From the NCBI RefSeq assembly GCF_024300625.1, contig NZ_CP101322.1, forward strand, positions 3,237,992 through 3,301,991: a stretch of 64,000 nt of DNA, given 5' to 3'. Position numbers and translations under genes: made by a program. Positions 23,558-55,636 of this stretch are shown here, one piece after another. The stretch comes from Halovivax gelatinilyticus (lineage in GTDB: Archaea > Halobacteriota > Halobacteria > Halobacteriales > Natrialbaceae). Each line of letters opens with the position of its first letter. Position 1 is the first letter of the stretch. The notes beneath the pieces were generated by a model. The model was not told the DNA's origin, made no database searches, and was given only the letters and a program-made list of their open reading frames with translations.

Positions 23558-24058
23558 TTAGAATCCGGATACACTCCCACCAACCAGGACGACGCATCCG
23601 GCGATCAGGAGGGCCCAGTTTACCATCGGATTCTTCGATCTGACGAGGCGGAGCGATACGGATGTCGCTGCAACTGGTTCGAACGGACGGATCCCCATCG
23701 GTGTTAGCGCATCGAGAAACACGTGTGACGTGAGCGAGATGCCGACTGCCCCACCGACGGCGAGAACGCCGATTAAGACGGAGACGTCGAACGTCGGTGC
23801 GAGAAGACCGCCGACGAGAGAGCCAACTACGATCGAGCCGGCGAGGAACCAGACCGTGTGCGTCGGCCCCCGGTGGGGGACGGGTAACGCGGTATCGATG
23901 TCGGGAAGCGGTGCACAAGCGACCGCGACGAGGAGACCGAACAGGGCGAGCGTCGTCGATTCGGTGGCGATCCAGAGGTACAACGGCGTATACCACAGGA
24001 TCGCCGTCCCGACGTGGCCCTTCCAGTACACGGACGGAGAGAGCGTGACCGTCCCCAT
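23558..24058 (-). CDS. Membrane-bound metal-dependent hydrolase (YdjM/DUF457 type)
   Basis: The protein has 166 residues and four to five membrane helices. It has the YdjM/DUF457 layout: WKGHVGTAILWYTPLY, a polar motif LPDIDTALPVPHRGPTHTVW, and SLTSHVFLDALTPMGIRPFEP. The His and Asp residues in these motifs are the proposed metal ligands of the family; the natural substrate is unknown. The frame is open to 24250, but the added residues are translated from a 38-base tandem repeat whose period is not a multiple of three. The ATG at 24058 is therefore taken as the start. Confidence 0.85.
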   Translation of the reverse strand: MGTVTLSPSVYWKGHVGTAILWYTPLYLWIATESTTLALFGLLVAVACAPLPDIDTALPVPHRGPTHTVWFLAGSIVVGSLVGGLLAPTFDVSVLIGVLAVGGAVGISLTSHVFLDALTPMGIRPFEPVAATSVSLRLVRSKNPMVNWALLIAGCVVLVGGSVSGF

Positions 24059-24071
24059 CAAGCTTCTGCCG

Positions 24072-24185
24072 TCCGTGGTCGGGATAACATCGGCTTGTGG
24101 GCGGAAGCGTCCGTGGTCGGGATCGCATGGGCTCGAGTCCGGAAGCGTCCGTGGTCGGGACGAAGCGAGATCGTGTCCGAACCTC
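24072..24185. repeat. 38-base tandem repeat, three copies
   Basis: The core GTCCGTGGTCGGGA occurs at 24072-24085, 24110-24123 and 24148-24161, exactly 38 bases apart. Copies 1 and 2 also share GGAAGC at their ends and CAT..GGCT in the middle; copy 3 diverges after the core. The array fills the space between two divergent genes (hydrolase start 24058, thiE start 24241). It could be a set of regulator sites or a slipped-strand expansion. Confidence 0.85.
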
Positions 24186-24240
24186 ACAAGTTCTGGCTCT
24201 CGGTCGAAGTCGATTTGTGGCCGCTCACCATAGTAGCCCT

Positions 24241-24876
24241 GTGAATCCATCGAACTGGCGGACCTACCTCGTAACCCAGGAATCGCTCTCCGCTGGTCGC
24301 TCGACGCCAGAAATCGTCGAGGCCGCGATCGACGGCGGCGTCGACGTCGTGCAACTGCGCGAGAAGGACCGATCGGCGCGCGACCGGTACGACCTCGGAC
24401 GAACGCTTCGCGATCTCACAGACGAGGCGGATATCCCGCTCATCGTGAACGATCGTATCGATCTCGCGCGGGCGATCGACGCGGACGGCGTTCACCTCGG
24501 TCAGTCGGATCTCCCGATTTCGATCGCGCGCGACCAACTCGGCGCTGATGCGATCGTCGGCTGTTCTGCGTTCCGGGTCGAGGATGCGCTGGCGGCCGAA
24601 CGCGACGGAGCTGACTACCTCGGAACCGGAGCCGTCTACGGCACGTCCTCGAAGGACGTCGATCCGGCGAAAGACGGCATCGGCCCCGAGGGAATTTCGG
24701 CGGTCGCCGAAGCTGTGTCGATTCCCGTCATCGCCATTGGGGCCATTACGGCTGAGAACGCCGGCCCCGTGTTCGAGGCCGGTGCCGCCGGCGTCGCGGT
24801 CATCAGCGAGATCACGAGTGCGGACGATCCGGCCGACGCGACGCGCCGTCTTGGAGAGGTGATCGCGCGTGTCTGA
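24241..24876 (+). CDS. thiE: Thiamine-phosphate synthase
   Basis: ThiE joins the pyrimidine (HMP-PP) and thiazole (THZ-P) halves into thiamine phosphate. The protein has 211 residues, a full-length TIM barrel: YLVTQESLS, GGVDVVQLREKD, PLIVNDRIDLA, DGVHLGQSDLP, YLGTGAVYGTSSK, IPVIAIGAI and GVAVISEI. These cover the pyrophosphate and phosphate sites. The GTG at 24241 gives the normal N-terminus NPSNWRTYLVTQ; upstream codons come from repeat DNA. The stop overlaps thiM by eight bases, so the two are an operon. No TPP riboswitch was recognised upstream. Confidence 0.96.
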   Translation: MNPSNWRTYLVTQESLSAGRSTPEIVEAAIDGGVDVVQLREKDRSARDRYDLGRTLRDLTDEADIPLIVNDRIDLARAIDADGVHLGQSDLPISIARDQLGADAIVGCSAFRVEDALAAERDGADYLGTGAVYGTSSKDVDPAKDGIGPEGISAVAEAVSIPVIAIGAITAENAGPVFEAGAAGVAVISEITSADDPADATRRLGEVIARV

Positions 24877-25702
24877 TTCGCCGGTCCTCGACGCAGCAGG
24901 TCTCGCCGCGGCCCGCCGTGCGATCGACGAGTCGACGCCGTTGATCCAGCACCTGACCAACCGGGTAACGATGAACGACGTCGCTCAGGTGACCCTCCAC
25001 TGGGGCGGCCTCCCGGTGATGGCGGATACGCCGGGAGACGCAGAAGAGATGGCGGCTGGTGCGAGTGCGATACTCTTCAATATCGGCACCGCCTCGCCGC
25101 GGGAGGTCGAGACGATGATCGACGTCGGAACGGTTGCCAACGACCGCGGCGTTCCCGTCGTGTTCGACCCCGTTGGCGTGGGTGCGACACCGACGCGGGA
25201 CCAGAACGCCGAGAAACTGCTCTCGTCGGTGGAGTTCGCGGCGATCAAGGGGAACTACGGTGAGGTGAGTGCGCTGGCCGGCGTCGAGGCCGAGGTGGCC
25301 GGCGTCGAGTCGATCGGCGAGTACGATGAGATAGACGAGACGGCGCGTGCGCTGGCCGCCTCGACCGGGGCGATCGTCGTCGCCTCCGGTGTCACGGACG
25401 TCGTCGCCGACGGATCGTCCGCCTTCGAGGTCGACGCGGGAGACGAGCGGATGGGGCAGGTCGTCGGCACGGGCTGTCTCCTCGGGGCGACGCTCGCGAC
25501 CTATCACGCGGCCGTGGAGGACCCGCTCGATGCGTCGCTTTACGCCACGCTAGGCTTCGACCTCGCGGGAGAGCGAGCGGCTGAAATGGCCCACGACGGA
25601 CCGGCCAGCTATCGGGTGAACTTCCTGGATAGTGTCGCGACGTTCGATCCCACCGTCGCGTCCGATCGATCGCCGGCGGCGCGCGTCGACCGACTCGAGT
25701 GA
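24869..25702 (+). CDS. thiM: Hydroxyethylthiazole kinase
   Basis: ThiM phosphorylates 4-methyl-5-(2-hydroxyethyl)thiazole with ATP, salvaging the thiazole that ThiE uses. The protein has 277 residues with the ribokinase-like fold: HLTNRVTMNDVAQVTLHWGGLPVMA, VVFDPVGVGATPTR, IKGNYGEVSAL and GTGCLLGATLATY, which contains the catalytic Cys and anion hole. The GTG at 24869 overlaps the thiE stop by eight bases. The last 15 residues are an acidic/basic extension beyond the usual length. Confidence 0.96.
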   Translation: MSDSPVLDAAGLAAARRAIDESTPLIQHLTNRVTMNDVAQVTLHWGGLPVMADTPGDAEEMAAGASAILFNIGTASPREVETMIDVGTVANDRGVPVVFDPVGVGATPTRDQNAEKLLSSVEFAAIKGNYGEVSALAGVEAEVAGVESIGEYDEIDETARALAASTGAIVVASGVTDVVADGSSAFEVDAGDERMGQVVGTGCLLGATLATYHAAVEDPLDASLYATLGFDLAGERAAEMAHDGPASYRVNFLDSVATFDPTVASDRSPAARVDRLE

Positions 25703-55331: not shown

Positions 55332-55636
55332 CAGAATCTACCGACCAGTACGAATTGAACACGGCCGATATGAGTTTAGACGAACTGAGAGCGGAGATCG
55401 AAGAGATCGATCGGGAACTCGTTCAGTTGATCGCGAGACGAACGTACGTCGCAGACACCATCGCTCGCGTCAAAGATCAGGAGGGACTCCCGACCACGGA
55501 CGAAGCCCAGGAAGCGCGCGTGATGGATCGAGCGGGAGAAAACGCCGATCGGTTCGACGTCGATTCGAACCTCGTCAAGGCGATCTTCCGGTTACTGATC
55601 GAACTCAACAAGGTTGAGCAGCGCGAAAACCGGTGA
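55328..55636 (+). CDS. Chorismate mutase (AroQ type)
   Basis: The enzyme turns chorismate into prephenate for Phe and Tyr. The protein has 102 residues, all helical. The first helix has LDELRAEIEEIDRELVQLIARRTYVADTIARVK, carrying the Arg and Lys residues that bind the substrate, then a helix with VMDRAGENA and IFRLLIELNKVEQ. It is a stand-alone domain, not fused to prephenate dehydratase or dehydrogenase. The ATGA overlap with aroK indicates coupled translation. Confidence 0.94.
   Translation: MTESTDQYELNTADMSLDELRAEIEEIDRELVQLIARRTYVADTIARVKDQEGLPTTDEAQEARVMDRAGENADRFDVDSNLVKAIFRLLIELNKVEQRENR

Follow-up and report, generated by a model that had tools for sequence, protein, structure and literature searches.

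A 38-bp tandem repeat between thiE and a divergent YdjM/DUF457 gene of Halovivax gelatinilyticus, probably a species-specific intergenic minisatellite

Does the short direct repeat between thiE and a divergent membrane protein gene of Halovivax gelatinilyticus regulate one of its neighbors, or is it a by-product of tandem duplication? The repeat lies in a stretch of 64,000 nucleotides, analyzed as a whole and hereafter called the window, from a genome of 3.70 Mb in a single contig. The array was found to be real, ordinary in kind and confined to this species among the genomes searched. We regard it as probably a small species-specific intergenic minisatellite that arose by tandem duplication and that thiE does not need for its expression (probability about 0.6), with a modest chance that it is a regulatory array for the DUF457 gene. 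As it stands, its significance is small, as it adds one further short intergenic tandem repeat.

Structure of the array and its position between the two genes

The features of the locus are as follows.

23558..24031, minus strand: gene for a membrane protein of the YdjM/DUF457 family (PF04307), with the GTG start favored by homologues
24056..24067, minus strand: putative TATA/BRE-like element AGAAGCTTGATG of the DUF457 gene, read by eye and assigned from its position
24070..24107, plus strand: repeat unit 1 (38 bp), with its core at 24070-24084; the unit closest to the DUF457 promoter
24108..24145, plus strand: repeat unit 2, core 24108-24122, 31/38 identical to unit 1
24146..24183, plus strand: repeat unit 3, exact core 24146-24160, remainder decayed or non-homologous, 24/38 identical to unit 1
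24205..24219, plus strand: conserved promoter element CGAAGTCGATTTGTG of thiE, which starts at position -36 relative to the start codon
24241..24876, plus strand: thiE, encoding thiamine phosphate synthase (PF02581) and starting with GTG
24869-25702, plus strand: thiM (PF02110), which follows thiE

The 14-mer GTCCGTGGTCGGGA is present exactly on the plus strand at 24071-24084, 24109-24122 and 24147-24160, spaced by 38 bases, and the invariant core extends to 15 bases (CGTCCGTGGTCGGGA, first copy from 24070), identical in all three units. TRF reported the array at 24070-24160 with a period of 38, 2.4 copies, 86% matches and a score of 133, the highest of the 47 TRF rows in the window, whereas the best of 60 dinucleotide-shuffled windows reached 73. 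The array thus consists of head-to-tail copies beyond chance expectation, as in the class of tandem repeats and minisatellites, and the 38-base-spaced repeat described in an earlier note on this DNA was borne out.

Unit 2 was 82% identical to unit 1, and unit 3 63%; units 2 and 3 were alike at 26/38 positions, and the linkers of units 1 and 2 at 16/23. Because unit 3 is only 63% identical to unit 1, it is decayed past its core or not a true copy there, and the array may extend, with a decayed third unit, to 24183. Units 1 and 2 differed at 7 positions, all confined to 16 adjacent columns. In a longest-run permutation test, P was 0.015 when units 1-2 were compared, 0.0097 for units 2-3 and 0.00025 when all three were taken jointly, the latter two values being inflated if unit 3 is merely partial.

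The start of the divergent gene determines the size of the gap. Most of the DUF457 homologues fetched begin with M/V-x-x-x-GH, a pattern that the GTG at 24031 matches but the ATG further upstream, at 24058, does not, indicating an intergenic gap of about 209 bases (24032-24240). The 180-base gap of the earlier note fits the ATG start; its placement of the array between thiE and a divergent membrane protein gene, upstream of both starts, holds for either start codon. The array was accordingly assigned as non-coding: the period, as that note had remarked, is not a multiple of three, and the homologue-chosen starts lie outside the array, through which a stop-free frame of DUF457 continues. RNA folds of the array on both strands were no better than those of shuffled sequences (z of -0.11 and +0.91), and a sigma-70/terminator scan, which does not cover archaeal promoters, returned nothing.

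The array resembles the prokaryotic satellites and minisatellites surveyed by Subirana and Messeguer 2019 (PMC6749651) in its short head-to-tail units, a unit above 30 nt, a short total length and no transposed family seen, and differs in having only 2.4-3 copies. According to that source, the short-repeat satellites of Halobacteria mostly form part of genes and have repeat lengths divisible by three, unlike the present array, which is non-coding with a period of 38.

Distribution of the array and of other tandem repeats

The 126-bp region matched only itself among 61 genomes (its own and 60 relatives, one genome per species; E <= 0.001), with a single place in its own genome. Paired cores at 38-bp spacing, allowing up to three mismatches, were present in 1/125 genomes of the family, namely its own, and the other 124 were without. 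The closest relative by thiE identity (81%), G004, is the sole one of the four other genus genomes in which DUF457 and thiE are adjacent, and its 148-bp gap between the two genes contained no array. A literature search returned nothing on the array or on tandem repeats of the genus among the matches listed.

The window held no excess of the core (29 matches with three mismatches or fewer, versus a shuffled expectation of 26.2). In the whole genome, the 14-mer had 4 exact matches and 3 at one mismatch; including two mismatches, there were 87 in all versus 11 for a reversed control, in which word bias is not preserved. The fourth exact match (55488-55501, minus strand) lies antisense inside an ORF named by eye as chorismate mutase-like; it was read as a coding coincidence and rejected as a related site. 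In a collection of 84,980 species, which may leave out the window's own genome, exact core pairs 15-45 bases apart were found in one stretch, from Actinomycetospora callitridis. This stretch (L072:120-340) contains many 15-bp repeats holding the 14-mer or near copies, read as PTTDL or RSVVG, and they were set aside as probably coding and unrelated to the array.

Other tandem arrays were sampled at a TRF score of at least 85 and classified by a crude gene caller. The 400-kb sample of the own genome gave 10 arrays, 4 of them non-coding; 200 kb of G002 gave 11 (5 non-coding), 200 kb of G004 gave 6 (1 non-coding), and 400 kb from four genomes of four other genera gave 15, with a 5-bp repeat as the only non-coding one. 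The non-coding counts are rough and probably low, because the caller took the upstream extension of DUF457 (23560-24250, minus strand) as coding, chose an antisense frame in place of thiE and failed to call the array at L090 non-coding. The excess of non-coding arrays in the genus over other genera was not significant (P = 0.07) and is suggestive only.

By reading of ORFs, the own genome holds a further non-coding array of 26 bp x 5.6 at L090:3770-3915. Another, with 22/46-bp units (L093:17080-17224), lies between ORFs that are apparently convergent, so that a promoter is not expected there. Among 14 arrays compared with each other, none matched better than E 0.02 except a pair from G002 and G003; the best match of the window's array to any of the others was 13 bases long (E 0.09). 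Similar arrays with unrelated units are therefore present in this genome and in a sister genome, and intergenic minisatellites of about 19-54 bp seem to be a habit of this genome and G002.

Tandem duplication is the simplest account of the array. A 38-bp stretch beside the YdjM/DUF457 promoter would have been duplicated in tandem by replication slippage or unequal recombination, leaving 2.4 to 3 units; the linkers would have diverged afterwards, and the product would be nearly neutral. The remark of the earlier note that slipped replication would give the same appearance as a binding array was right. Two observations count against this interpretation. The core is unchanged in three copies while the differences are clustered, a pattern that uniform neutral decay does not predict, and arrays occupy nearly the same slot before DUF457 paralogues in two sister species.

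A possible operator at the DUF457 promoter

By eye, AGAAGCTTGATG looks like a haloarchaeal-type BRE/TATA, which would give a leaderless DUF457 transcript: the element lies about 25 bases before the GTG at 24031, and the array begins two bases beyond it. Judged from position, any regulatory role would be likelier at this promoter than in thiamine control. The array could be an iterated operator, activating or repressing, in which a regulator binds the core, with unit 1 beside the BRE/TATA and units 2-3 reinforcing. We hold this as a tentative possibility, kept alive by the unchanged core between diverged linkers and by the same-slot arrays of the two sister species.

Those arrays have 19-bp units and lie directly upstream of a paralogous YdjM/DUF457 gene, at L050:1375-1463 in G002 and L051:1991-2056 in G003. 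Relative to the DUF457 start, the arrays occupy -126 to -36 in the own genome, -126 to -38 in G002 and -103 to -32 in G003, with periods of 38, of 19 or 38 (TRF reports both) and of 19, respectively. When the 300 bp upstream of DUF457 were surveyed in 30 loci (the best 30 of 116 genomes with a match), TRF scores of at least 85 were obtained for these three only, that is, for 3/5 genus genomes and 0/25 loci of other genera. No array of this score was found before thiE at the 29 loci other than that of the own genome.

Several results argue against a shared operator. The units are unlike: the core matched the G002 array at 9/15 positions, which 59% of shuffled cores equal, and the 19-bp arrays were rejected as the same unit. 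The window's DUF457 gene and the G002/G003 gene fell into separate supported subgroups of the tree (99/98 and 100/99), the fork joining them being supported at 88/83 and flagged for long branches. G002 and G003 have their array in common by descent (91% identity over 65 bases), so that there were only two array events. No upstream array was found at the DUF457 genes of G004, which belongs to the same subgroup as the window's gene, and of G001. At the sampled rates, an array falls in any given 209-bp gap with a chance of about 1-4% within the genus, and the comparison was made post hoc, after the array had been seen. Scattered weak matches to the 19-bp unit, exceeding a reversed control, were observed in 5/5 genus genomes among the matches listed; they were taken as word bias.

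The spacing argues in the same direction. The earlier note had considered it suited to cooperative regulator binding, but 38/10.5 equals 3.62 turns, which places neighboring copies about 220 degrees apart; they therefore face different sides of the helix, and same-face cooperative binding is not favored. Haloarchaeal upstream activating elements, such as the bop UAS and the GvpE UAS, lie just upstream of BRE/TATA. The array has a like position and differs from them in its lack of a known regulator, its out-of-phase spacing and its lack of conservation; we know of no sequence that it has in common with these elements.

A broader proposal, which we consider unlikely, is that DUF457 promoters of the genus repeatedly gain tandem operator arrays (38-bp here, 19-bp in two sisters), placed immediately before the core promoter, whose copy number tunes expression. 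The array spans 89 bp in G002 but 72 bp in G003, a difference of about one 19-bp unit, indicating that the copy number of such arrays drifts; this difference is taken from the spans, and for G002 TRF also gives a 3.8-copy row and a 38-bp row. If the proposal were true, the arrays would represent tuning by promoter minisatellites in archaea, a rapidly changing form of promoter tuning of which we know few archaeal cases.

Thiamine control and remaining alternatives

The array lies 81-171 bp upstream of the thiE start, and this closeness raises thiamine control of thiE-thiM, for example by ThiR, as a further reading of it as an operator. The genome has a single ThiN-domain match (L075, G000:C1:3094374-3094841, minus strand) whose N-terminus contains a helix-turn-helix-like stretch by eye, and its product is a probable ThiR. 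We nevertheless consider the array very unlikely to be an operator of thiE-thiM. It occurs in no other of the 125 family genomes, although 119/125 have a thiE match (E <= 0.001; two of them weak). Upstream of the own genome's thiC, thi4 and thiR the core was not found, and the best matches there had 4-5 mismatches, equal to background (342/400 random 300-mers give 4-5). Rfam gave no TPP riboswitch over 23900-24500, with a lone weak match to another family, far below the gathering score.

thiE probably has its own promoter downstream of the array, as suggested by the conserved element CGAAGTCGATTTGTG. The consensus of this type (up to 4 mismatches in 15) was present within 60 bp before thiE in 20/30 loci, including 5/5 in the genus, and in 1.8% of random 60-mers, a contrast that is flattering because the consensus was written from the same 30 loci. 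These loci were the best 30 of the 119 genomes with a thiE match, and the assumed start codon was wrong in 2/30 (L018 and L038). Compared with ThiR operators of archaeal thiamine genes, the array likewise lies near a thi operon, but it is missing at the three other thi genes examined, is not conserved before thiE in relatives, and precedes the thiE promoter without overlapping it. The thiamine link drawn by the earlier note was thus not supported, the closest relative also being without the array.

A better candidate for such a site was observed near thiE in other genera. A palindromic element, YACCNNNTGGTA, is located after the TATA-like box and before the thiE start (e.g. L019, L023 and L033), from -18, and is a candidate ThiR operator. 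At up to one mismatch it was present in 17/30 of the fetched thiE loci, 0/5 of this genus and 0.5% of random 60-mers. A similar sequence, ACTACCGGGAGATAAC, was noticed by eye upstream of thi4 in the window's genome.

The direct repeats with more variable linkers also brought a CRISPR-like array or a repeat family, mobile or dispersed, into consideration, and we give this hardly any credence. CRISPR repeats are about 25-40 bp, far above the 15-bp core, and units 1 and 2 have mutually related linkers, unlike the unrelated spacers of CRISPR. The array has a single genomic place and matched no plasmid or phage, and viral contigs contained no exact core pair. Chance similarity, which the biased words of a GC-rich genome might in general produce, is negligible in view of the shuffled windows and the three 14-mers in register.

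Returning to the favored interpretation as a minisatellite, weaker self-similarity of the unit was observed at lag 16 (40/94 positions) and lag 22 (41/88), suggesting that the unit itself may have grown from an older, shorter repeat.
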